From Allostella vacuolata (GTDB taxonomy: Bacteria; Pseudomonadota; Alphaproteobacteria; ATCC43930; Allostellaceae), in contig AP019702.1 of NCBI GenBank assembly GCA_006739055.1, positions 1,364,501 through 1,428,500 on the forward strand: a stretch of 64,000 nucleotides of DNA. Direction: 5' to 3'. The notes below the pieces were generated by a model. The model worked only from the letters and a program-made list of their open reading frames with translations, did no database searches and had not been told where the DNA came from. Below, piece after piece: positions 24,891 to 36,645 of this stretch; positions within the stretch are counted from its first letter, which is position 1; each line of letters begins with the position of its first letter. Both the position numbers and the translations under genes were made by a program.

Positions 24891-25103
24891 ATGGCCGTAG
24901 AGAAGATCAACGCGTCCAGCAGCCTCGCCGAAGTCGTGGATCGCATCCTCGACAAGGGCGTGGTCGTCGACGCGTGGGTTCGCGTCTCCCTGGTCGGCAT
25001 CGAGCTGCTGGCCGTCGAGGCCCGCGTCGTCGTTGCCGGCGTGGACACCTACCTGAAGTATGCGGAAGCCGTCGGGCTCACCGCGGGTGCCCAGACCGCC
25101 TGA
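24891..25103 (+). CDS. gvpA: Major gas vesicle shell protein GvpA
   Basis: A 70-residue protein with the canonical GvpA sequence: [21 protein letters not shown] (first helix), [10 protein letters not shown] (first strand), then [22 protein letters not shown] (second strand and helix). GvpA polymerises as a helical rib that forms the hollow gas-permeable wall. Ideal ribosome binding site GAGGAGG. As first gene of the operon and followed by a stable hairpin, it is placed for expression well above the assembly genes. Confidence 0.98.
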
Positions 25104-25401: not shown

Positions 25402-26193
25402 ATGTCTTTGGCCGGCCAGATTTCCGATATCGTCACTGCTCTCGCCGCGACGCAGGCCGCGCGCCGCGCGGCCCTCTCGGGCATCCGCAGCGACACCGCC
25501 CGCCATCTGGACGAGGCGCGCTCCGCGCACCGCCGGATGGCTTCCGCACAACAGCACAGCCTGTCCGAGGCACTGCGCAGCACCAAGCTGGCGACCGCGA
25601 TCCTTCTCGGCGCGGCCGACGAGCAGATCGACGGCTATCGCAAGGCCCGGATCGAGCAGGCCGCCTCGCTCGACCGCGAGCTGAGCGACGGGGCCAATGC
25701 GCTGCGCTCGAACACCCGCAACTGGATCGGCACGCAGTCCGCCATGCGCCGCAAGCAGGCCGCCGACAATCTGCGCCAGCGCCGCCGGGACCGCGACGCG
25801 CTGGCCAGTGATGTCCGCGCGCTGACCGAGCAGAACCTGTCCCATCTGGCCGCGCTGACCAAGGACCGGCGGGAAGCTGCCGCCATCTGGCTCCGGCGCA
25901 ACGGCTCCGCGGTGACCGTCATCCTGGCGGCAGCCCCGGTCAAGAGCGAGGCGCCGGCCAGGATGGAAGCCAAGCCCGAGCCGGAACCGGTCAAGGCGGA
26001 AGCCGCCAAGCCGGAGCCCGTGAAGCCGGAACCCGTCAAGGCGGAGCCGGCGAAGCCGGAGCCGGCGAAGATGGAGCCGGTCAAGGCGGAGGCCGCCCGG
26101 TCGGAAGCGAAGCGGGAGCCCAAGGCCGAGACCCGGCCGGAAGGCAGGACCACCCTGAAGGCGGACAAGCCGGAGACCGACAAGTCCGTCTGA
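25402..26193 (+). CDS. Helical protein with PEPVK-rich tail, positional GvpC candidate
   Basis: A 263-residue protein not matching a family by eye. Residues 1-170 are almost entirely helical and highly charged, with loosely repeated blocks of about 40 residues (e.g. AARRAALSGIRSDTARHLDEA and RKARIEQAASLDRELSDGANAL). Residues 175-263 are a low-complexity Lys/Pro/Glu tail built on KPEPVK/KAEPAK units. There is no signal peptide or membrane segment. It lies between gvpA and gvpN, the slot occupied by gvpC in other clusters known to me, and GvpC is also a helical repeat protein that rivets the outer vesicle wall. A strong AAGGAGG ribosome binding site supports expression. Similarity to known GvpC is not demonstrable here. 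Confidence 0.6.
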   Translation: MSLAGQISDIVTALAATQAARRAALSGIRSDTARHLDEARSAHRRMASAQQHSLSEALRSTKLATAILLGAADEQIDGYRKARIEQAASLDRELSDGANALRSNTRNWIGTQSAMRRKQAADNLRQRRRDRDALASDVRALTEQNLSHLAALTKDRREAAAIWLRRNGSAVTVILAAAPVKSEAPARMEAKPEPEPVKAEAAKPEPVKPEPVKAEPAKPEPAKMEPVKAEAARSEAKREPKAETRPEGRTTLKADKPETDKSV

Positions 26194-26310: not shown

Positions 26311-27405
26311 ATGTCGACAGAGCCCGCGCCCGTGATGCCCCCTTCGACGGATATCGAGTTCGGCTCCCAGAGGCCGGCCCGGCCGAAGCCGGCGGAGGCG
26401 CTGGCGGTGGGATATCGGCTGTCCGCCCGGCCGGCGGCGCCCTCCACCCTCACCCTGCGGCCGCGCGCGGACTTCGTCGAGACCGACCAGGTGAAGGATC
26501 TCACCCGGCGCGGGCTCGGCTTCCTGCGGGCCGGCTATCCGCTGCATTTCCGCGGGCCCGCCGGCACCGGCAAGACCACTCTGGCGCTCCACGTCGCGGC
26601 CCAGCTCGGGCGGCCGGTGATCGTCATCACCGGCGACAACGAGCTCGGCACGGCGGACCTCGTCGGCTCCCAGCGCGGCTATCACTACCGGAAGGTCGTC
26701 GACCAGTTCATCCACAACGTGACGAAGCTGGAGGAGACCGCGAACCAGCGCTGGACCGACCATCGCCTGACCACCGCCTGCCGCGAGGGCTACACGCTCG
26801 TCTATGACGAATTCACCCGCTCGCGCCCGGAGACGCACAACGTGCTGCTCGGCGTGTTCGAGGAGAAGATCCTGTTCCTGCCCGCCGAGGCGCGGGAGGA
26901 GTGCTACATCCGCGTCCATCCGGATTTCCGGGCCATCTTCACCAGCAACCCGCAGGAGTATGCCGGCGTCCATGCCAGCCAGGACGCGCTGGCCGACCGG
27001 CTCGCCACGATCGACGTGGACTATCCGAACCGGGCCATGGAGCTTGCCGTCGCCTCGGCGCGCACCGGCCTCGCCGAGGCCGAGGCGGCGCGGATCATCG
27101 ATCTGGTCCGGGCCTTCCGTGCCTCCGGCGACTACCAGCAGACCCCCACCATGCGCGCCAGCCTGATGATCGCGCGGGTCGCGGCGCAGGAGGGGCTCCG
27201 CATCTCCGTGGACGATCCGGGCTTCGTGCAGCTGTGCATGGACGCCCTGGAGTCCCGCATATTCTCCGGGGCGCGGCAGGAGGCCGACGCGCGCGCGCGG
27301 CACCGGGTCGCCCTTCTGGGCCTCCTGGCCACCCATTGCCCCTCCGAGGCGCCGGTCGCACGCGTCGCCACCGTGGCTCGGGCCAAGCGGAAGTCCGCGT
27401 CATGA
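26311..27405 (+). CDS. gvpN: Gas vesicle AAA+ ATPase GvpN
   Basis: A 364-residue MoxR-type AAA+ ATPase required for vesicle enlargement in other systems. Walker A GPAGTGKT at 82-89; GDNELGTADLVGSQRGY, Walker B TLVYDEFTRSRPETHNVLL, sensor 1 IFTSNPQEYAGVH, and the arginine-finger region DALADRLATIDVDYP. The first 60 residues are a Pro/Ala-rich extension. Its stop overlaps the next start as ATGA. Confidence 0.96.
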   Translation: MSTEPAPVMPPSTDIEFGSQRPARPKPAEALAVGYRLSARPAAPSTLTLRPRADFVETDQVKDLTRRGLGFLRAGYPLHFRGPAGTGKTTLALHVAAQLGRPVIVITGDNELGTADLVGSQRGYHYRKVVDQFIHNVTKLEETANQRWTDHRLTTACREGYTLVYDEFTRSRPETHNVLLGVFEEKILFLPAEAREECYIRVHPDFRAIFTSNPQEYAGVHASQDALADRLATIDVDYPNRAMELAVASARTGLAEAEAARIIDLVRAFRASGDYQQTPTMRASLMIARVAAQEGLRISVDDPGFVQLCMDALESRIFSGARQEADARARHRVALLGLLATHCPSEAPVARVATVARAKRKSAS

Positions 27406-27755
27406 GCGCGGAGCGCAAGAAGGCCCCCAAGCGGGGCATGCGCGACGTCGCCACGGTGCAGACCCGCATCGGCAGCACGTCGCCTGCGAACCGTACCCAG
27501 GCGGTGGCTCGGTTCGCCCGGCTGGAGAACGAGCGGATGCGGATCCTGCGCGAACTCGATGCCTGGAACGCCCGCAAGCAGGAGGCCGAGCGCATGCTGG
27601 CCAAGGTGGAGGCGGAGCTGTCGACGCTGCAGACCCTCCTGCTCGGCGCGCCGCCCGTGCCGAGCGGCCCGTTGCGCCCGGCGCCGCGCGGGCGGCCGGC
27701 GCAGAAGGTGCAGGAGCCGCGCCCGCTCGGGGCCGGCTCCGTGATCGAATACTGA
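27402..27755 (+). CDS. Unknown coiled-coil protein of the gvp operon
   Basis: A 117-residue protein coupled to gvpN by an ATGA overlap. It begins with a basic segment (ERKKAPKRGMRD), then has a helix or coiled coil from about residue 28 to 83 (ARFARLENERMRILREL...EAELSTLQTLLL) and a proline-rich tail. It is not one of the gvp families I can name with confidence; the gene after gvpN in some enterobacterial clusters (gvpV) is a positional analogue only. Helical design suits an adaptor that binds another vesicle assembly protein. Confidence 0.6.
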   Translation: MSAERKKAPKRGMRDVATVQTRIGSTSPANRTQAVARFARLENERMRILRELDAWNARKQEAERMLAKVEAELSTLQTLLLGAPPVPSGPLRPAPRGRPAQKVQEPRPLGAGSVIEY

Positions 27756-27794: not shown

Positions 27795-28355
27795 ATGACC
27801 GGGAACGACAAGGGTAAAGGCAAGGGTAAGGGCAAGGGCAAGGACCAGGCAGCCGCGGGCGAAGGCGGTCCGGCCGAGAACCTGGCCGATCTCGGTGCCA
27901 TGTTCCGCGGCCTTGGCGGCTTCGTCGAGATGCTCGGCTCCCTCGTGGAGAAGAGCGAGCACCAGGAGCGGAGTGGCGAGTTCAAGGTGAAGGGGCTGGG
28001 CGACCAGGCACGCGGCGTCTACGGCTTCAGCGTCCGCACCGGCCTCGGCGGGATTCCCCAGGTACGCCGGTTCGGCAATCTCAACCCGTCGCCCAAGGGG
28101 CCCGTGGTCGAGGACGTGCGCGAACCCCTGGTCGACGTGTTCGACGAGGCGGATGCGGTGATGGTGACCGTCGAGATGCCCGGTGTCGCCGAGGAGGAGA
28201 TTTCGCTCTCGGTGGAGGGTCGGCACCTCGTTCTCGCCACCACCGGACTTCACCGCTACGCCAAGAACGTCGAACTGCCGGAGGGCATCGACCCTGCCTC
28301 GCTGGAGCGGAGCCACCGCAACGGCATCCTCCAGGTCAAGCTCAAGAAGGTCTGA
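27795..28355 (+). CDS. gvpH: Gas vesicle Hsp20-like protein GvpH
   Basis: A 186-residue protein. The C-terminal third (from VREPLVDVFDEADAVMVTVEMPGV) is an alpha-crystallin/Hsp20-like beta sandwich, ending in RNGILQVKLKK. The middle contains the GvpH-typical LGGFVEMLGSLVEK and GVYGFSVRTGLGG. The N-terminus is a run of KGKGKGKGK encoded by near-identical six-base units, so unit number could change without shifting the frame. GvpH is thought to chaperone GvpA-family proteins and other vesicle components. Confidence 0.92.
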   Translation: MTGNDKGKGKGKGKGKDQAAAGEGGPAENLADLGAMFRGLGGFVEMLGSLVEKSEHQERSGEFKVKGLGDQARGVYGFSVRTGLGGIPQVRRFGNLNPSPKGPVVEDVREPLVDVFDEADAVMVTVEMPGVAEEEISLSVEGRHLVLATTGLHRYAKNVELPEGIDPASLERSHRNGILQVKLKKV

Positions 28356-28359
28356 GGCC

Positions 28360-29379
28360 ATGACGGGCCGGGTCGAAGGCGTCGGGACCTTCACCGTGGG
28401 TGCGTCCACGGTGCGGATCGTGACCGATTGCGCCGGCGACATCTCCGCCCTGGTCCAGGCCGAGGAGCAGGTGGTGCGCCGGCTGGTCGAGCGCGGGGCG
28501 TGGCCGCACGAGACCGTCACCCTGTTCGCGCTCGACAGCCTGGCGCCTCTGGTCGGCCAGCTGAAAGCGATGGGCCGGCTGATGGATGACGATCTGGTCA
28601 GCCTGCCGCATCGGCCGATGGTGGTCCTCTACGATCCTCGCCACGCCACGGAATGCTTCGTGTTCGTCAATCGCCAGATCATGATTGCCGAACAGCTCTG
28701 GGGCGATCCCCTGGCTGCCGAAGGGCTGCTCGCGCACGAGCACGCCCACCCGCTGTCCGAAGCGCCCGTCACCGCGGCGGCCCGCACCTTGAAGGTCGAG
28801 GCAGCGGGCCCCGCCGCCCTGGCGCCGCTCGCGGCGCGCCTCGGCGAGACGCTGTCCAGCGGCGCCACGACCGAGCTCCTGGCGAACGCCTTCTGCCTCG
28901 CGCACGGCTTCGGCGACGCGCTGCGGCACGTCAACCGCATCACGCTGCGCCGGGCGGCGCGCAACCTCGCCCAGCGCCCCGAACTCGAACAGCGCGTCGC
29001 CGCCGCCGTCGCCGCCGGAACGCTGCCGCCCGATCAGGTGCCGGTTCTGCTGCGTCTGGCCGATGCCCAGATCGCCCTGCCGTTCGCGCTGGAGGTGGTG
29101 CCTTTCGTCCGGGCCGGGCTCGCCGCGCACGCGGCGGAACTGGAAAGCCTGCTGACGGCCGAGCTGCTGTCGCGCATGGCGCCCGAAGTGGCCGGCATCT
29201 ATCACGACCTGAAGGGTCCTTTCGCGGCGCTGCGCCCGGAGTGGGGCACCGTGCCCCTGTCGGCCTGGGTCGACGACATCCTGTCCCGTCTGTCCGCCTT
29301 TCTCTCGCAGAGCGGCGCACCGCTCACGCTCAGCCTCGTTCCCGCGGACCCGCCACACGTCGAAGGGAATCTCCCATGA
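28360..29379 (+). CDS. HExxH metalloprotease-like protein in gvp operon
   Basis: A 339-residue protein starting four bases after gvpH and coupled by ATGA to the following gvpF/L gene. It carries GLLAHEHAHPLSE, an HExxH zinc motif at residues 126-130 (His126, Glu127, His130), followed by TTELLANAFCLAHGFG with Glu172 as a plausible third ligand, a gluzincin-like layout. The N-terminal 115 residues form an alpha/beta region and the C-terminal half is helical. No signal peptide. I know of no standard gvp gene with this signature. Proteolysis of an assembly factor or a catalytically inactive chaperone role are both possible. Confidence 0.65.
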   Translation: MTGRVEGVGTFTVGASTVRIVTDCAGDISALVQAEEQVVRRLVERGAWPHETVTLFALDSLAPLVGQLKAMGRLMDDDLVSLPHRPMVVLYDPRHATECFVFVNRQIMIAEQLWGDPLAAEGLLAHEHAHPLSEAPVTAAARTLKVEAAGPAALAPLAARLGETLSSGATTELLANAFCLAHGFGDALRHVNRITLRRAARNLAQRPELEQRVAAAVAAGTLPPDQVPVLLRLADAQIALPFALEVVPFVRAGLAAHAAELESLLTAELLSRMAPEVAGIYHDLKGPFAALRPEWGTVPLSAWVDDILSRLSAFLSQSGAPLTLSLVPADPPHVEGNLP

Positions 29380-30161
29380 TGCAGACCGAAGCCCTGGCCC
29401 CCGCCGCGGTCGCAGCCGAGGGCAAGTACCTCTACTGCATCATCGATGCGCCGGCGCCGGCCACCTTCGCGTCGCCCGGCATCGGCGGACGCGGCGACGT
29501 GGTCCATACGCTGGCCGTGGGCCGGCTCGCGGCGGTGGTGAGCGATACGCCGCGCATCGAGTACGAGAACAGCCGCCGCAACATGATGGCGCACACCAAG
29601 GTCCTGGAAGAGGTGATGGCGCATCACACCCTGCTTCCGGTGTGCTTCGGCACGGTGGGCTCGGGGGACGACGTGATCGCCGAGAAGATCCTGGAGGGGC
29701 GGCGGGAGGAACTCTCCCGGCTGCTGGAGGAGATGCGCGGACGGGTGGAGCTCGGCCTCAAGGCGACCTGGCGCGAGGAGGTGATCTTCGCGGAGGTCCT
29801 CGACGAGGATCCCGCCGTCCGCAAGCTGCGCGACAGCCTGGTCGGCCGCTCGCCCGAGAAGAGCCATTTCGAGCGCATCCGCCTGGGCGAGCTGATCGGC
29901 CAGGCGCTGCTGCGCAAGCGCCGCGACGAGGAGGAGCGCATCCTCGATCGCGTCCGGCCCTTCGTCCGCAAGACCAAGCTGAACAAGCCGATCGGCGACC
30001 GCATGATCCTGAACGCCGCCTTTCTCGTCGAGACCGCGCGCGAGGCGGCGCTGGACCAGAGCGTGCGCGAGATGGATGCGGATTGGGGGGCGCGGCTGTC
30101 CTTCAAGTATGTCGGGCCGGTGCCGCCCTACAACTTCGTCACCATCACCATTCATTGGTAG
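29376..30161 (+). CDS. gvpF: Gas vesicle protein GvpF/GvpL (copy 1)
   Basis: A 261-residue GvpL/GvpF-family protein: KYLYCIIDAP at the start, LPVCFGTVGSGDD in the middle, the SHFERIRLGELIGQAL helix, NAAFLVE and the closing YVGPVPPYNFVTITI. These proteins bind GvpA-family subunits and act in nucleation. Of the four copies in this cluster it is closest to a standard GvpF/L in length and motif retention. An ATGATG start gives two alternative initiators. Confidence 0.94.
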   Translation: MMQTEALAPAAVAAEGKYLYCIIDAPAPATFASPGIGGRGDVVHTLAVGRLAAVVSDTPRIEYENSRRNMMAHTKVLEEVMAHHTLLPVCFGTVGSGDDVIAEKILEGRREELSRLLEEMRGRVELGLKATWREEVIFAEVLDEDPAVRKLRDSLVGRSPEKSHFERIRLGELIGQALLRKRRDEEERILDRVRPFVRKTKLNKPIGDRMILNAAFLVETAREAALDQSVREMDADWGARLSFKYVGPVPPYNFVTITIHW

Positions 30162-30173
30162 GAGGTACGGAAC

Positions 30174-30425
30174 ATGGGTCTGGTGACGAATGTGGCTTTC
30201 GCCCCGGTGGTCGGGCCGCTGAAGGGGGTCCTGTGGCTCGCCCGGCTGATCGCCGACCAGGCCGAGCGCACGCTCTACGACGAGGATCTGGTGCGCGCCG
30301 CGCTGCTCGACCTGGAGCAGCGGCTCGATGCCGGCCAGATCAGCGAAGCCGACTACGACGCGGAGGAGGAGATTCTCCTGGCGCGTCTGAAGATCGCCCG
30401 CGAGCGGATGCGCAGCGGGCTGTGA
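30174..30425 (+). CDS. gvpG: Gas vesicle protein GvpG
   Basis: An 83-residue protein: hydrophobic N-terminus GPLKGVLWLARLIADQAE followed by the charged helix LDLEQRLDAGQISEADYDAEEEILLARL, the typical GvpG pattern. GvpG is an essential small assembly factor that interacts with GvpF/L and GvpA in other systems. Twelve bases after gvpF copy 1 with ribosome binding site GGAGG. Confidence 0.93.
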   Translation: MGLVTNVAFAPVVGPLKGVLWLARLIADQAERTLYDEDLVRAALLDLEQRLDAGQISEADYDAEEEILLARLKIARERMRSGL

Positions 30426-30492: not shown

Positions 30493-30756
30493 ATGGCGAC
30501 GACCATCGAACTGATCCGAAACGTGAAGGCGCAGTTGCAGGAGCTGACCGGCTTCCATGCCGACAGCGTGTCGGACTTCACGGCGACGGAGGGCGGCTGG
30601 GAGATGACGGTCAATCTGCTGGAGCTGAAGCGCATCCCGGCGTCGACCGATCTGCTCGCCGCCTACCGGATCACCCTCGACCTGACCGGCAGCGTGAAGG
30701 GCTATCACCGCACGCGCCGCTATCTGCGCGACCAGGTGATGGAGGATGCGCCGTGA
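30493..30756 (+). CDS. gvpO: Gas vesicle protein GvpO
   Basis: An 87-residue protein with the GvpO core LTGFHADSVSDFTATEGGWEM, VNLLELKRIPASTDLLAAY and a C-terminal YHRTRRYLRD. GvpO is an accessory assembly factor. It sits 67 bases after gvpG, with a GAGGAGG-like ribosome binding site (GGCGAGGAGG) upstream. Confidence 0.93.
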   Translation: MATTIELIRNVKAQLQELTGFHADSVSDFTATEGGWEMTVNLLELKRIPASTDLLAAYRITLDLTGSVKGYHRTRRYLRDQVMEDAP

Positions 30757-30951: not shown

Positions 30952-31323
30952 ATGAGCGGACAGCGGATGGAGCACTCCGTCCAGGCAGTGGGGCTGGCGG
31001 ACATACTCGAGAGGGTGCTCGACAAGGGCATCGTGATCGCCGGCGACATCTCCATCTCGCTGGTGGAGGTGGAACTCCTGACCATTCGCCTGCGCCTCGT
31101 CGTGGCGTCGGTGGATCGAGCCATGTCGATGGGGATCAACTGGTGGCAGAGCGATCCCAACCTCAATTCCCATGCCCGGCAACTGGAAGAGGACAACCGC
31201 CTGCTGCGCGAGCGGCTCGACCGGTTGGAGGCGGCCCTGGCGCTGCCCGAGATGGCCGGTGAGCGGCTGGCGGATGCAGGGCAGGGGGGTGGCGCAGAGC
31301 AGGGGGTGACCCATGGCCGATGA
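30952..31323 (+). CDS. gvpJ: GvpA-family minor protein GvpJ
   Basis: A 123-residue protein. Residues 10-60 are a GvpA-type core (LADILERVLDKGIVIAG, SISLVEVELLTIRLRLVVAS), followed by the GvpJ-typical MSMGINWWQSDPNLN and a coiled coil (QLEEDNRLLRERLDRLEAAL). Minor GvpA homologues such as GvpJ are thought to nucleate vesicle growth. The last 11 bases overlap the CDC48-like gene. Confidence 0.9.
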   Translation: MSGQRMEHSVQAVGLADILERVLDKGIVIAGDISISLVEVELLTIRLRLVVASVDRAMSMGINWWQSDPNLNSHARQLEEDNRLLRERLDRLEAALALPEMAGERLADAGQGGGAEQGVTHGR

Positions 31324-33424
31324 ACCAGAGCCCTTTGCCTTTCGCGTATGCGAGGCGCCGACCCGGGACGTGGGCCGGGGGCTGATCCGGCTCGATCCGG
31401 AAGACATGACCCGGCTCGGGGTCGAGGTCGGCGACGTGGTCTCCATTCTCGGCCGCCGGGCGACCGTGGCGCGGGTCATGCCGGCGCACATGGACATGCG
31501 CCGGCAGAGCCTCGTCCAGATGGACGGGCTCGCGCGGGTCAATGCGGGGGCGAGCCTCGACGAGCGGGTGGTGCTGAGCCCGGCGGCGGTGACGCGGGCG
31601 CGTGCCGTGACCCTCAATCCCGTGGGGGGGCGCGTCCAGGCGCCGGAACCGCGCCTGCTCGCCCGTCTCCTCGACGGCATCCCGCTGCTCGCCGGCGACC
31701 GGGTGCGCACGGCGCTGGTGGGCGCCCAGATCCGGGAATTCACGGTGGAGAGCACCGACCCGCTCGGGCCGGTGATGATCGGGCCCGACACCCGGATCCG
31801 CTGCCTGGACGGCACCGCCGAGAGCAATGCCATCACCTACGAGGATGTGGGCGGGCTGCGCAACGAGGTGCGGCGCATCCGCGAAATGATCGAGCTGCCG
31901 CTGAAGCATCCGGAGGTCTTCCAGCATCTCGGCATCGATCCGCCCAAGGGCGTGCTGCTGTGCGGCCCGCCCGGCACCGGCAAGACGCTGATCGCCCGCG
32001 CCGTGGCGCGCGAGGCCAACGTCCATTTCATCCACCTCAACGGCCCGGAGATCATCGACAAGATGTACGGGGCGAGCGAGGCCCAGCTGCGCCGCATATT
32101 CGACGATGCGGAAAAGAACGCGCCGTCCATCATCTTCATCGACGAACTCGACGCGATCGCCCCGAAGCGCGAGGAGATGAGCGGCGATCGCCAGGTGGAG
32201 CGCCGGGTGGTGGCGCAGCTGCTCGGCCTGATGGACGGCCTGCAGGCGCGCGGCCAGGTGATCGTCATCGCCGCGACCAACATTCCCAACGCCATCGATC
32301 CCGCCCTGCGCCGGCCGGGCCGGTTCGACCGCGAGATCCTGGTGGGGGTGCCGGACGAGAACGGCCGCCGGGAGATCCTGGAGATCCATACCCGCGGCAT
32401 GCCGCTCGCGGCCGATGCCGACCTCGGGCGACTCGCCTTCCTCACCCCCGGCTTCGTCGGCGCGGATCTGGCCGCGCTGTGCCGCGAGGCGGCGATGATC
32501 GCCCTGCGGCGCCTGATCCCCGACATCAGTTTCGAGGATGGGCGGATCTCGGAGGAGAAGCTGGCCGCGCTCGTCGTGACCGCCGCCGATTTCGCCGCCG
32601 CCCAGGCCGGCACCCAGCCGAGCGCGCTGCGCGAGATCGTCACCCTGGCCTCGCACAAGCGATGGACGGACGTCGGCGGCCTCGACGACATCAAGCGGCT
32701 CCTGGTGGAGGCGGTGGAATGGCCGATGCGGCACGCCGACCTCTATGCCGAGGCCGGCATCCAGCCGCCCAAGGGGATCCTGTTCTATGGCGTGCCGGGC
32801 ACCGGCAAGACCCTGCTGGCCAAGGCGCTCGCGGGCGAGAGCGGCGCCAACTTCATCGCCGTCAAGGGACCCCAGCTCCTCTCCATGTGGGCGGGGGAGT
32901 CCGAGCGCGGGGTGCGCGAGGTGTTCCGCAAGGCGCGCCAGACCGCGCCCTGCATCGTCTTCTTCGACGAGATCGACACCCTGACCCCGAACCGCGGCGG
33001 CCTTGGCAATGGGATAACGGACCGGGTGGTCGCCCAGCTGCTGACCGAGATCGACGGCATCGAGGACCTGCGCGGCGTCACCGTGGTCGCGGCGACCAAC
33101 CGTCTCGACCAGATCGACGCCGCCTTGCTCCGGCCCGGCCGGTTCGACTTCCTGGTCGAGTTCCGGGCCCCGGACGTCGCGACCCGCCGCGCCATCCTGG
33201 ATGTGCATGCCGGCCGGATGCCGCTCGATCCCACCGTGGACCTTGCGGCCCTGGCCGAGGCGACGGCCGGCATGGTGGGGGCCGACCTCGAGGCGCTGTG
33301 CCGCCACGCCGGGATCGCCGCGATCCGCGATGTCGTGACGGAGCAGAACGCGGTCGCGCTCCGGGTGGAGCGACGGCATTTCGACGAGGCGCTGGTCGTG
33401 CTCCGGCGCGGGAGCGAGGCATGA
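31313..33424 (+). CDS. CDC48/VAT-like double AAA+ ATPase
   Basis: A 703-residue protein with full p97/VAT architecture: an N-domain (about 8-170, double-psi barrel start FAFRVCEAPTRDVGRG), D1 with Walker A GPPGTGKT at 218-225 and Walker B IIFIDELDAI, and D2 with GVPGTGKT at 493-500 and IVFFDEIDTL. The second-region-of-homology blocks RRPGRFDRE and LRPGRFDFL are both intact. This family unfolds proteins and extracts them from complexes. Its start overlaps gvpJ, and its stop overlaps the J-domain fusion gene by ATGA, so it belongs to the vesicle operon rather than general proteostasis. Confidence 0.93.
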   Translation: MADEPEPFAFRVCEAPTRDVGRGLIRLDPEDMTRLGVEVGDVVSILGRRATVARVMPAHMDMRRQSLVQMDGLARVNAGASLDERVVLSPAAVTRARAVTLNPVGGRVQAPEPRLLARLLDGIPLLAGDRVRTALVGAQIREFTVESTDPLGPVMIGPDTRIRCLDGTAESNAITYEDVGGLRNEVRRIREMIELPLKHPEVFQHLGIDPPKGVLLCGPPGTGKTLIARAVAREANVHFIHLNGPEIIDKMYGASEAQLRRIFDDAEKNAPSIIFIDELDAIAPKREEMSGDRQVERRVVAQLLGLMDGLQARGQVIVIAATNIPNAIDPALRRPGRFDREILVGVPDENGRREILEIHTRGMPLAADADLGRLAFLTPGFVGADLAALCREAAMIALRRLIPDISFEDGRISEEKLAALVVTAADFAAAQAGTQPSALREIVTLASHKRWTDVGGLDDIKRLLVEAVEWPMRHADLYAEAGIQPPKGILFYGVPGTGKTLLAKALAGESGANFIAVKGPQLLSMWAGESERGVREVFRKARQTAPCIVFFDEIDTLTPNRGGLGNGITDRVVAQLLTEIDGIEDLRGVTVVAATNRLDQIDAALLRPGRFDFLVEFRAPDVATRRAILDVHAGRMPLDPTVDLAALAEATAGMVGADLEALCRHAGIAAIRDVVTEQNAVALRVERRHFDEALVVLRRGSEA

Positions 33425-34509
33425 GCGGGCTTCTCGTCTTCGCCATCGTGCCGGCCGACGGGATCGAGCCCGGCATCCTCGCGCCGCGGGAGGAGCTGCC
33501 GGCCAACCTGCGCGCGGTTGCCGCCGACGGCTTCGCCGCCGTCGTGGGGGCGGCGCCGGAAGGAGGGCTGAAAGGGCGCGATCGCAGCGTGCTCCTGCCG
33601 CGCCTCCTGGCGAGCCAGAAGGTCATCGAACGGCTGATGGCGCGTGGCCCGGTCCTGCCGGTGACTCTCGGCACGGTGCTTGAGGACGAGGCGCGCGTCC
33701 GCCACATGCTCGCCGCAGGCGCCCCCATGCTCGAAGCCGCATTCGGGACGCTGGGCGACTGCTGGCAGATGGACCTGTCCGTGCGCTGGGACCTGAACCA
33801 GGTGGTGGCGCGCCTCATGGGCGAGGTGCCGGGCGATGTGCGCGCAGCTGCCGGGTCCGGCGACGAGGCGGCGCGCCGGGCCCTCGGCGAGGCTCTTGCC
33901 GGCCTGGCCGCCGGCGAGCGACGGCGCGTCCAGAGCCGGCTCGCCGCGGCCCTGCGCGACGTGGCGCGGGACCTCATCGTCTCGGAGCCCGTAGAGCCGG
34001 AGAGCGTCGTCGACATCGCGATCCTGGTGGAGCGGCCGGCTCTGGCCGAAGTCGAGGCCGCGCTCGACCGGCTCGACGCGGAGTTCGAGGGCCGCCTCAA
34101 GTTTCGCCTGGTCGGCCCGCTCGCGCCGCACAGTTTCGCCACGGTCCAGGTTCACCTCGCGCCCGAGGCGGCACTGGCCGGAGCGTGCGCGGAGCTCGGC
34201 GTCGAGCGCGGCGCCGGGCTGCAGGACGTGAAGGTCGCCTATCACCGCGCGCTCGTCCGGTTCCACCCCGACCTGGCTCCGCATGGGGACGATGGCGGGC
34301 CGGAAGACGAGCACGATGGCGGGGAGGGCAGGGCATCCCGCCTGCTGACGGTGACGGCAGCCTACCGCGCACTCCAGGCGGAGCATGCGCCGATCTCGCT
34401 GCGCCGGCAGGATGGCATCGCCGTGAACCAGGAACAGGACGCAAGCGCGGCGATGGGCCAGCAACGCGGCATCGTACCCGGTCGGGAATTGCAGGCTCTG
34501 CGCATGTGA
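33421..34509 (+). CDS. GvpF/GvpL (copy 2) fused to a DnaJ domain
   Basis: A 362-residue two-domain protein. Residues 1-247 are GvpF/L (GLLVFAIVPAD, LPVTLGTVLEDE, FRLVGPLAPHSFATVQV). Residues 253-320 look like a J-domain: LGVERGAGLQDVKVAYHRAL, the HPD tripeptide at 282-284 in RFHPDLAP, an acidic insert, then LLTVTAAYRALQ. HPD is the residue set through which J-proteins stimulate Hsp70 ATPase. The last 40 residues are unassigned. ATGA-coupled to the CDC48-like gene. The fusion directly ties vesicle nucleation to DnaK. Confidence 0.88.
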   Translation: MSGLLVFAIVPADGIEPGILAPREELPANLRAVAADGFAAVVGAAPEGGLKGRDRSVLLPRLLASQKVIERLMARGPVLPVTLGTVLEDEARVRHMLAAGAPMLEAAFGTLGDCWQMDLSVRWDLNQVVARLMGEVPGDVRAAAGSGDEAARRALGEALAGLAAGERRRVQSRLAAALRDVARDLIVSEPVEPESVVDIAILVERPALAEVEAALDRLDAEFEGRLKFRLVGPLAPHSFATVQVHLAPEAALAGACAELGVERGAGLQDVKVAYHRALVRFHPDLAPHGDDGGPEDEHDGGEGRASRLLTVTAAYRALQAEHAPISLRRQDGIAVNQEQDASAAMGQQRGIVPGRELQALRM

Positions 34510-34599: not shown

Positions 34600-34641
34600 G
34601 CCCAATCAAAGGATGATCCTCGCAAGGGGGGGAGGGTGCCG

Positions 34642-35418
34642 ATGTTGTATGTGTACGCGATCGCGGCCGACCATCCCGACCCGGACAACGCCATGTTCGG
34701 CGGCGAGGGCATCGTGCCCGATGCGCCGGTCCGGCTGCTGCAGCTGGGCGATCTCGCCGTCGCGGCAAGCCTGGTTTCGGCGGCGGATTTCGCGGCCGAT
34801 GCGCTTCGCGCCCATCTGGAGGATGCCCGGTGGACCGCGCTGCGGGTGCTGGCCCACCAGCGGGTCGTGGATTCGCTCCTGCCCCATGCGACGGTGCTGC
34901 CGATGAAGTTCTGCACCCTCTTCTCGGGGGAGGCGGCGCTGAAGCAGGCGCTCGCGCACAATCGGGCCGCGCTCCAGGCAACGGTCGAGCGCCTGCGCGG
35001 GGCGCGCGAATGGGGGGTGAAGCTCTATTGGGAGGCGCCGCGCAACCCCGCCCCGCCGTCCGCCGGGCAGGGCGAGGCGGGTGCCGGGGCGGCCTTCTTC
35101 CAGCGCAAGCGCGACCAGCAGCGCCAGCGGGCAGAGGCCGAGGCGGCCGTCGCGCGCTGTGTCGCGGCGAGCCACCGCCGGCTCGCGGACGCGGCGCGCG
35201 CCGCCGTCGCCAATCCCGTCCAGCCGCCGGCCGTCCACCGGCAGCCCGGCGAGATGGCGCTCAACGGGGCCTATCTGGTCGCGCGCGCTGCCGAGCCCGC
35301 CTGGCGGGAGGTGCTCGCCGAACTGGAGCGGACCCACGCGGACGGCGGCATCCGCTACGAACTGACGGGGCCCTGGGGCCCCTATAACTTCACGGGGAGT
35401 GGCCTTGTCGGATCCTGA
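34642..35418 (+). CDS. Gas vesicle protein GvpF/GvpL (copy 3)
   Basis: A 258-residue GvpF/L-family protein: MLYVYAIAADHPD, VLPMKFCTLFSGEAALKQAL, VKLYWEAP, a Gln/Arg/Ala-rich helix (FFQRKRDQQRQRAEAEAAVAR), MALNGAYLVAR and RYELTGPWGPYNF. The ATG with GGGGGAGG upstream was chosen. It overlaps the next gene (gvpM-like) by 20 bases. Sequence differs clearly from copies 1 and 2, so the paralogues are old rather than recent duplicates. Confidence 0.92.
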   Translation: MLYVYAIAADHPDPDNAMFGGEGIVPDAPVRLLQLGDLAVAASLVSAADFAADALRAHLEDARWTALRVLAHQRVVDSLLPHATVLPMKFCTLFSGEAALKQALAHNRAALQATVERLRGAREWGVKLYWEAPRNPAPPSAGQGEAGAGAAFFQRKRDQQRQRAEAEAAVARCVAASHRRLADAARAAVANPVQPPAVHRQPGEMALNGAYLVARAAEPAWREVLAELERTHADGGIRYELTGPWGPYNFTGSGLVGS

Positions 35419-35641
35419 ACCCATCATCCCGCGCACCAGCGGCGACATCGCCCTGGCGGATCTGCTGGACCGCGCCTTGCACAAGGGGCTGGTGCTCTGG
35501 GGCGAGGCGACGATCTCGGTCGCCGGCGTGGATCTCGTCTATCTCGGACTGAAGGTGCTCGTGGCTTCCACCGAGACTGCCGATCGGATGCGCGCCGCCG
35601 CGGCGTCACAGTCCGCCGACCCCAAAGTTCGTGCAGGTTGA
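35399..35641 (+). CDS. gvpM: GvpA-family minor protein, GvpM/GvpS-like
   Basis: An 80-residue GvpA-type protein: LADLLDRALHKGLVLWGEATISVAGVDL then YLGLKVLVASTETADRM. The VDLVYLGLKVLVAS variant of the second strand is typical of the GvpM/GvpS branch rather than of shell GvpA or GvpJ. GTG start inside the preceding gene; a TTG two codons on is an alternative. Minor shell homologues are assembly nucleators. Confidence 0.8.
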   Translation: MALSDPEPIIPRTSGDIALADLLDRALHKGLVLWGEATISVAGVDLVYLGLKVLVASTETADRMRAAAASQSADPKVRAG

Positions 35642-35650
35642 GGCGGGGAC

Positions 35651-36331
35651 ATGCTCTATCTCTATGCAGTCCTGGAAGCACTTCCCGCCGCCCGCACCCT
35701 TCCGGCCGGGATAGGCGGCGGCGAGCTGCTCTTCGTCGAGGCATTCGAACTGGTCTGTGCCGCCAGCGAGACACCGGAACGCGCGATCGCCCCCGAACCC
35801 ACCCAGGTGTGGCGGCACCAGCAGGTGGTGGAGGCGCTCATCGACTGCGCTGCCGCATTGCCGTTGCGCTTCGGAACGCTGGTGGAAGACGCCGTGGCCT
35901 GCCGGCGCCTCCTGACCCGGCACCGGGAGGCGCTGTGCGCGCAGCTCGACCGGGTGCGCCATTGCGTGGAGTTCGCGCTCCGGGTTTCCGGCCTCCGCGA
36001 GGAGGTGGGGTCGGACCATGTCATCGGCGGCGGACCCGGGGTCTCCTACATGCGTGCGCTCGCCCGCCGCGAGGCGAGCTGGCCGCCCTCGACCGGCACC
36101 TTTCCCCATGACGGCCTTGCCGCCCATGCCGCCGACCGGCTGCTCTGGTCGCGGTCCGCCTCCCAGCCCGACCTGCGCGCGTCCTTCCTGGTCCTGAAGC
36201 CGAACGTCGCGGCCTTCCTGGCGGATGTCTCCGCCCTGCAGAGGATGCGCCCCGACCTCGGCATCACCTGCACCGGGCCGTGGCCGCCCTATTCCTTCTC
36301 CGACCCCGACCTGTCCGGAATGAGCCCATGA
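35651..36331 (+). CDS. Gas vesicle protein GvpF/GvpL (copy 4, short)
   Basis: A 226-residue, shortened member of the GvpF/L family: MLYLYAVLEALP, LPLRFGTLVEDAVACRRLL, VEFALRV, and the closing ITCTGPWPPYSF. The region around residues 130-160 replaces the usual long central helix by a shorter loop. ATGA overlap with gvpK. This copy may have a specialised partner in a multi-subunit assembly complex like the one described for haloarchaeal accessory Gvps. Confidence 0.88.
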   Translation: MLYLYAVLEALPAARTLPAGIGGGELLFVEAFELVCAASETPERAIAPEPTQVWRHQQVVEALIDCAAALPLRFGTLVEDAVACRRLLTRHREALCAQLDRVRHCVEFALRVSGLREEVGSDHVIGGGPGVSYMRALARREASWPPSTGTFPHDGLAAHAADRLLWSRSASQPDLRASFLVLKPNVAAFLADVSALQRMRPDLGITCTGPWPPYSFSDPDLSGMSP

Positions 36332-36645
36332 CCGGTTTCCTGAACGGGCCGGCGGACGTCGAGACGCTGGAGACGGCGCTGCGCGGGCGGGTCGACATCG
36401 ATCCGGAGCGGGTCGAGCAGGGGCTGGTGAAGCTGGTCCTGATGGTGGTCGAGACGCTGCGCCAGGTGATCGAGCGCCAGGCCATCCGCAGGGTCGAGAG
36501 CGGCTCGCTGACCGACGACGAGGTCGAGCGCCTGGGGCTCACCCTGATGCGGCTGGAAGAGAAGATGGATCAGCTGCGCCGGCAGTTCGACCTCGGCGAG
36601 GAGGACCTGTCGATGCGGCTGAGGCTGCCCCTGCAGGAGCTGTAG
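36328..36645 (+). CDS. gvpK: Gas vesicle protein GvpK
   Basis: A 105-residue protein with the GvpK core VEQGLVKLVLMVVETLRQVIERQAIRRVESGSLTDDEVERLG and LMRLEEKMDQLRRQFDL. Small helical assembly factor, required in most gas vesicle systems. It is the last gene of the operon and overlaps copy 4 of gvpF/L by four bases. A tandem repeat follows 22 bases downstream. Confidence 0.95.
   Translation: MTGFLNGPADVETLETALRGRVDIDPERVEQGLVKLVLMVVETLRQVIERQAIRRVESGSLTDDEVERLGLTLMRLEEKMDQLRRQFDLGEEDLSMRLRLPLQEL

Follow-up and report, generated by a model that had tools for sequence, protein, structure and literature searches.

We analyzed a 64,000-nucleotide stretch of the Allostella vacuolata genome (contig AP019702.1, positions 1,364,501 to 1,428,500; hereafter, the window), in which a gas-vesicle (gvp) gene cluster occupies the forward strand from about 24.9 to 36.6 kb. 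Within this cluster, the open reading frame (ORF) at 33421-34509, which begins with ATG, ends with TGA, and has no internal stops, encodes a protein of the GvpF family that continues into a J domain bearing an intact histidine-proline-aspartate (HPD) motif. The GvpL/GvpF domain of this protein, which we call GvpF-J or the fusion, aligned with positions 2-244 of the 245-position Pfam profile PF06386 at 151.7 bits (cut-off 23.6). The gene directly upstream encodes a CDC48/VAT-type ATPase (846.5 bits; TIGR01243 cut-off 802.65) with CDC48 N (PF02359) and CDC48_2 (PF02933) domains above cut-off and two AAA modules, both with intact Walker A and B motifs; its best solved-structure match was the VCP-like ATPase 5g4f (5g4f_A, E 3e-203). 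The TGA of this ATPase gene sits within an ATGA shared with the start of the fusion gene, and the junction is identical in a related cluster (genome G511; G and L numbers designate genomes and loci, respectively). An earlier note on this DNA had proposed a J domain with HPD at residues 282-284, placed C-terminally to a GvpF/L domain, a gene overlap with a p97/VAT-like ATPase, and an Hsp20-like GvpH in the same operon. Sequence, profile, and model bore out the first of these proposals, the four-base overlap the second, and a PF00011 match of 29.5 bits the third. Coordinates are collected in Table 1.

Multiple results identify the C-terminal part of GvpF-J as a J domain. First, the Pfam DnaJ family (PF00226) matched residues 259-287 of the window protein at 19.6 bits (E 0.00097), under the gathering score of 27.8 bits. 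Among the six whole fusion proteins scanned, only the orthologue in the same slot on an Octadecabacter arcticus plasmid (L011) passed, just above the cut-off at 28.0 bits, and because the four others reached only 22.0-26.6 bits (L099, 25.8; L097, 26.6; L098, 24.4; L040, 22.0), Pfam alone would miss most of the fusion family. Second, a profile of 15 orthologous J regions, searched alone against the PDB, recovered solved J domains with a best E of 1.9e-13 and matched the DnaJ of the DnaK complex 5nro at E 1.9e-11. This search returned 76 distinct PDB sequences at E <= 0.1; among the best 60, most are named DnaJ or Hsp40, and the remaining matches, CbpA and Sec63 for example, we take to be J-domain proteins. 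Third, an AlphaFold2 model of the fusion folded both the GvpF and J parts (mean predicted local distance difference test score, pLDDT, 82.7) and placed HPD between helices II and III. In blocks of ten residues, pLDDT was 88-94 in helices I and II, 73 at residues 281-290 (HPD), 52 in the II-III loop, and 83-93 in helix III. Finally, the top Foldseek matches of this model were GvpF crystal structures (6l5d_B, E 2.6e-12, template-modeling score 0.77 by target), and the J part matched several J domains with probability 1.00 and E-values of 0.017 to 0.11, so this fold search by itself supports a J domain and does not prove one. The sub-threshold Pfam score of the window protein could be read as a chance HPD, or as two unrelated frames mistaken for a fusion, with no genuine J domain present. 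The orthologue above cut-off, the model, the Foldseek matches, and the HPD counts given below all speak against that explanation, however, and the J-profile search of the PDB refutes it; we assign it a vanishingly small probability.

Table 1. Features of the gas-vesicle region of the window, followed by fusion genes found away from gvp genes (the latter in coordinates of their own loci).
Feature	Position	Strand	Remarks
GvpA (start inferred)	24891..25103	+	
Protein without a name, encoded between gvpA and gvpN, with a long P-, K-, E-, and A-rich tail	25402..26193	+	no Pfam match
GvpN by similarity	26311..27405	+	phmmer match to gene annotated gvpN on Octadecabacter plasmid
Small coiled-coil-like protein (start inferred)	27378..27755	+	Pfam: nothing above cut-off
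GvpH, Hsp20-like	27795..28355	+	PF00011, 29.5 bits
HExxH protein (HEHAH), without a name	28360..29379	+	no Pfam match
GvpF, ordinary paralogue without J domain (start inferred)	29376..30161	+	domain scan
GvpG	30174..30425	+	domain scan
GvpO	30493..30756	+	domain scan
GvpA/GvpJ-family protein	30952..31323	+	domain scan
CDC48/VAT-type double AAA ATPase, 703 residues	31313..33424	+	TIGR01243; 4-base overlap with fusion gene
GvpF-J fusion gene, 362 residues	33421..34509	+	ORF reading, domain matches, model, fold search
GvpL/GvpF domain, residues 4-240	33430..34140	+	PF06386, E 4.5e-44; Foldseek to GvpF structures 6l5d, 4qsg
J domain, helices 249-259, 267-281, 300-322 in model	34165..34386	+	Pfam, AlphaFold2, Foldseek, profile search
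HPD motif, residues 282-284	34264..34272	+	read in sequence; invariant in 15/15 aligned members
C-terminal motif ISLRR, residues 325-329	34393..34407	+	residues 325-328 a predicted strand; pattern in 13/15 tails
GvpL-like paralogue	34636..35418	+	domain scan
GvpA-family protein (GvpS-like)	35399..35641	+	domain scan
Third GvpL/GvpF-family paralogue	35651..36331	+	domain scan
GvpK	36280..36645	+	domain scan
Orphan gene (G157)	L032 5374-6435		
Orphan gene (G799)	L099 137-1258		
Orphan genes	L033, L095-L098		family f161

The J domain, whose absence from close homologues the earlier note had named as grounds for giving up its proposal, is present in them, and HPD was kept in all 15 aligned members, which are 16-47% identical to the window protein over the J region. 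Lysine, arginine, or histidine occupies the positions matching Arg22 and Lys26 of DnaJ in 14 of 15 members each, and the position of Arg27 in 10 of 15; all three residues are important in DnaJ. After the J domain, 13 of the 15 tails hold a hydrophobic strand that ends in a basic pair or in QR/KR (ISLRR in the window protein); shuffled tails gave a mean of 0.6 and a maximum of 5 in 2000 trials, a control for a pattern that was itself picked after viewing the sequences. A looser pattern, also post hoc, was found in 16 of 26 Chloroflexota tails (leaving out a hit in L156 that lies outside such a tail), and seven Chloroflexota tails (L147-L153) end in VYQW or VYRW instead. The motif forms a strand in both predicted models, weakly so in that of a fusion encoded away from gvp genes, and our guess is that this strand could dock the J domain onto the GvpF body.

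The fusion occurs in two bacterial phyla. A single-protein query confirmed no relatives, and an alignment query yielded seven loci; duplicate-looking records (G798/G805, L033/L040, L032/L042, L029/L037) were counted once. GvpF/L matches were found in 8 of 385 searched genomes of the window's class, Alphaproteobacteria, and in 5 of 398 from a draw of its phylum, two draws that overlap and both include the window's genome. Fusions inside gvp clusters were present in the window, G511, G287, G434, two contigs of metagenome-assembled genomes (MAGs; L036 and L038), Octadecabacter, and G383 (L031); the last has the gene order of the window with several genes, including the fusion, frame-broken, and was excluded from HPD counts and trees. 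A further fusion lies in L039 (genome G795), a record titled as a Chloroflexi MAG, and at least 27 of 400 drawn genomes of that phylum hold one (L039 plus 26 fetched loci), where up to five candidates were scored per genome and the Chloroflexota counts are thus lower bounds. HPD was intact in 24 of these 26 loci, L146 having lost it and the L156 protein ending before it, and in L133 and L138-L141 the labeled gene order equals that of the window, HExxH gene included. These comparisons show conservation of the predicted fusion in Alphaproteobacteria and Chloroflexota. Three genomes (G302, G611, and G627) have gvp clusters with no fusion in the fetched stretch, and a search of a phage collection gave no match. 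Among the papers listed in searches of open-access PMC text, no title or abstract start described a GvpF-J fusion; such an architecture may already be on record in domain databases. Within the window's own genus, three genomes (G001-G003) gave no gas-vesicle structural match; the cluster is patchy within the genus, which fits its mobility or loss.

Linkage of the fusion with neighboring genes was scored in 55 Chloroflexota loci fetched from listed rows, 28 because they extended towards the J part and 27 to serve as a reference set; these loci were chosen by hand, so the resulting table reports association rather than prevalence, and its statistics ignore shared ancestry. Both fusion and CDC48 were present in 18 loci, the fusion only in 8, CDC48 only in 7, and neither in 22 (Fisher p 0.0011). 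When only the 39 loci judged uncut were considered, CDC48 was found in 14 of 17 with the fusion versus 5 of 22 without it (p 0.00033), GvpH in 13 of 17 versus 6 of 22 (p 0.0036), and the HExxH protein in 7 of 17 versus 0 of 22 (p 0.0013), and links with GvpO (p 0.057) and GvpN (p 0.21) were not clear. Of the 18 loci holding both, 15 have the CDC48 gene immediately before the fusion gene and in the same orientation. Of the fusion-only loci, L147 and L149 carry a CDC48 piece at the stretch edge and others are cut by contig ends; L178 starts beside the expected place of the fusion. In the window's class, CDC48 accompanies seven of eight fusion clusters (window, G511, G383 in pieces, G287, G434, L036, and L038), and the L039 cluster contains it as well. 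No CDC48 was found in the fetched cluster stretches of G302, G611, and G627, nor above cut-off elsewhere in these genomes. All 8 genomes above cut-off among 20 scanned for CDC48 have gvp genes; 4 of 14 control genomes were above cut-off too, and the family is therefore not special to gvp clusters.

CDC48/p97 proteins typically act in unfolding and extraction. This activity and the linkage in uncut loci (14 of 17 versus 5 of 22) would suit quality control or turnover, in which subunits that have assembled wrongly, or vesicles that are spent, would be marked by the fusion and then dismantled with CDC48. Likewise, 22 of the 29 fusion-less Chloroflexota loci also lack CDC48 (17 of 22 when uncut), and neither gene thus appears to belong to a minimal set for assembly. 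The same data fit assembly and disassembly alike, however, and the fusion also occurs without CDC48 in Octadecabacter and Chloroflexota loci. We regard a turnover function as unlikely and prefer a role for GvpF-J as a co-chaperone of gas-vesicle subunits, as developed below.

Trees of the GvpF part alone place the fusions apart from ordinary GvpF. With the J part removed, the GvpF parts of fusions and of the orphans (relatives encoded away from gvp genes) formed one clade with support of 99/99 in a tree of 42 rows, and in a tree of 86 rows all ordinary GvpF rows fell to one side of a 99/98 branch. In the larger tree, alphaproteobacterial fusions and orphans grouped together (98/92) beside one Chloroflexota group, and the orphans formed a clade (98/93) adjoining the window and G511 proteins (96/89). 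This tree excluded L157 (contig end), included over-long rows for L139-L141 and L144 whose columns were filtered, flagged unusual composition in some rows, the window and G511 fusions included, and was rooted at the midpoint. The topologies show that the predicted fusion protein is a GvpF paralogue separate from the ordinary GvpF encoded in its own operon. They fit one ancient fusion event, with the more diverse side in Chloroflexota and transfer to Alphaproteobacteria; because the root is a midpoint root, we only infer the direction and the single origin. A single origin requires that the root lie towards ordinary GvpF/GvpL, a likely placement.

One branch of the family is encoded outside gvp operons. 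Fusions with HPD lie away from gvp genes in G157, G799, G347, G803, G804, G805, and G806, and G260 (L034) and G348 (L035) carry orphan GvpF proteins that belong to this clade and lack the J domain. No match to Gas_vesicle (PF00741) was found in nine orphan-bearing genomes with estimated completeness of 80-100%, and none of the five scanned for CDC48 (G157, G347, G260, G348, and G798) was above cut-off. In seven genomes of the window's class, the fusion is therefore present and searches found no structural gene for gas vesicles, an observation that the earlier note had not anticipated and that we consider the most interesting part of the finding. The orphan gene is present in all four sampled genomes of the order of G157, twice without the J domain, and in 5 of 33 sampled genomes of the order of G347, these being all five from family f161 and none of the 28 others; such whole-group presence makes the gene look inherited rather than stray. 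In the orphan pair G347/G806, nonsynonymous (dN) and synonymous (dS) divergence was 0.041 and 0.916 for the GvpF part and 0.012 and 0.658 for the J part, values that show strong purifying selection. The orphan gene comes after a hybrid histidine kinase gene in G347 and adjoins two TadE-like genes in G799. A GvpF of the fusion clade at 9631-10650 of L156 (G1191) has no gvp neighbors in the 20 kb fetched and is a possible Chloroflexota orphan.

Based upon these results, we propose that GvpF-J is a J-domain co-chaperone that uses its GvpF fold as the client-binding part and would hand GvpA-type subunits to DnaK, with CDC48 as a frequent but non-obligatory partner. We put the probability of this reading at roughly 0.58; its client-binding element is carried over by analogy from other organisms. 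Excerpts of published work describe ordinary GvpF as the primary partner of GvpA2 with a proposed chaperone role (PMC11445434, PMC9501494) and report a GvpF-GvpM interaction (PMC6107691). The client, the DnaK step, and the order of action would then be as follows. As has been published for ordinary GvpF, the GvpF part may bind GvpA/J/S-type subunits, which are prone to aggregate; the J domain would make DnaK close on the GvpA-type client; and DnaK would hold this client, or pass it along, until its entry into the vesicle shell. CDC48, made from the overlapping gene, could extract or recycle misassembled subunits. The window genome has five further J-domain matches above the Pfam cut-off, and GvpF-J would therefore be a specialist. 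In orphan genomes, the same two-domain adaptor would have to serve another client.

Several observations weigh against this proposal. First, as noted above, the Pfam DnaJ score is sub-threshold for the window protein and, among the other five complete fusion proteins scanned, for all but L011. Second, classical DnaJ has a basic residue after HPD, and the residue at this position is basic in only 1 of 15 members. Third, HPD is missing from L146, which lies inside the fusion clade; L154 and L155, which are close by profile and were left out of the tree, retain a J-like end that lacks HPD and fail the J profile; and the J part of L156 stops before HPD. Fourth, conservation is lower in the J part than in the GvpF part for three of the six pairs examined: window/G511 (J part 44% identical, dN 0.595, dS 1.024; GvpF part 61% identical, dN 0.320, dS 0.715), G157/G799 (49% versus 52% identity), and L036/L038 (49% versus 59%). 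By identity, the J part is the more conserved in the other three (G287/G434, G804/G803, and G347/G806), and this mixture suggests that selection is firm on HPD and the core and looser elsewhere. Finally, CDC48 is linked to the fusion yet separable from it in both directions: the Octadecabacter cluster has the fusion and an Hsp20 gene with no CDC48, and G009 has CDC48 and a gvp cluster in which the fusion was not found.

The first four of these points would also suit a J domain that has lost its work with DnaK and serves as a structural or docking module, the losses of HPD in L146, L154, and L155 leaving a similar C-terminal end in place. Retention of HPD in 15 of 15 members, down to 16% identity with the window protein, and in 24 of 26 further loci argues against such a loss, as does the closest orphan pair, whose J part is constrained more tightly than its GvpF part. 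We judge this structural or docking role to be improbable. The natural HPD losses in L146, L154, and L155, which keep a similar tail strand, possibly represent J-like scaffold proteins.

The separability of CDC48 bears on the relay that the earlier note had envisaged, in which GvpH holds subunits, the J domain recruits DnaK, and the ATPase remodels nucleation complexes. The expected co-occurrence of fusion and ATPase was seen in 18 of 26 Chloroflexota fusion loci, but 8 of 26 lack a full CDC48, and 7 of 29 loci have CDC48 alone. A genuine J domain, conserved HPD, and the statistical ties of the fusion to CDC48 and GvpH within gvp clusters favor a relay; its parts are nevertheless not an obligatory set, being incomplete in Octadecabacter, G009, and Chloroflexota loci, and orphan fusions also exist. 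A GvpH-DnaK-CDC48 relay is thus partly supported, by correlation and with clear exceptions, and the co-chaperone function proposed here for GvpF-J treats CDC48 accordingly as optional.

Comparison with known systems places each component. GvpF-J shares the full domain, the fold, and the gvp-cluster setting of the GvpF/GvpL family (PF06386; Microcystis and Anabaena GvpF, 4qsg, 6l5d), and differs in its C-terminal J domain, its tail motif, and its membership of a separate paralogous clade. With J-domain (Hsp40) proteins that lack G/F or zinc regions, presumably class C, it has in common HPD, three predicted helices, and a basic helix II, whereas its client part is a GvpF fold, its post-HPD residue is mostly non-basic, and a strand motif follows the J helices. 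The window ATPase has the N domain, CDC48_2, and two AAA modules of CDC48/p97/VAT proteins (TIGR01243; 5g4f), but it is bacterial, encoded in a gvp operon, and overlaps the fusion gene by four bases. The Octadecabacter arcticus plasmid cluster (NC_020910.1) is identical in gene order around the fusion, which is annotated there only as GvpL/GvpF family, and unlike the window has no CDC48; excerpts of the paper describing this plasmid (PMC3646047) mention neither a J domain nor CDC48.

Other features of the window stand apart from this argument. The HExxH protein at 28360-29379 has a zinc-metallopeptidase-like motif (HEHAH), is conserved in G511 and G383, and was found in 8 of 26 fusion-bearing and 0 of 29 other fetched Chloroflexota loci. 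The protein at 25402-26193 occupies the position of gvpC in other clusters (gvpACN order, from an excerpt of PMC9501494). Upstream, an ORF at 20164-21303 matches Nal1_C and, below threshold, a trypsin-like family, and lies within a stretch of lower guanine-plus-cytosine content (0.64-0.67, 20 to 26 kb) that reaches the start of the gvp region. A scan of the gvp cluster for promoters and terminators found none of either (shuffles gave 0.7 and 4.4). A defense role was considered and dropped, as PADLOC returned nothing for the fusion, and its matches for CDC48 were all of the AAA type.

These results bear on how gas-vesicle shell proteins stay soluble and are inserted, a process for which PMC11445434 proposes GvpF as a chaperone while leaving aside, by its own statement, any reliance on proteins native to E. 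coli. A natural GvpF-J fusion provides evolutionary evidence that GvpF acts in an Hsp70 pathway in some bacteria, offers a three-residue test of that link through HPD, and gives a practical hint for expressing gas vesicles as acoustic reporters. More tentatively, GvpF-J may be the first Hsp70 adaptor seen to be dedicated to gas vesicles, with one branch having left the operon and been retained, in whole alphaproteobacterial groups that have no gas-vesicle structural gene, as a J-protein of general use whose client pocket is a GvpF fold. That orphan branch would make the function of the GvpF fold testable outside gas vesicles and, if the proposal is true, the GvpF fold would be a client-binding domain with clients beyond gas-vesicle proteins.

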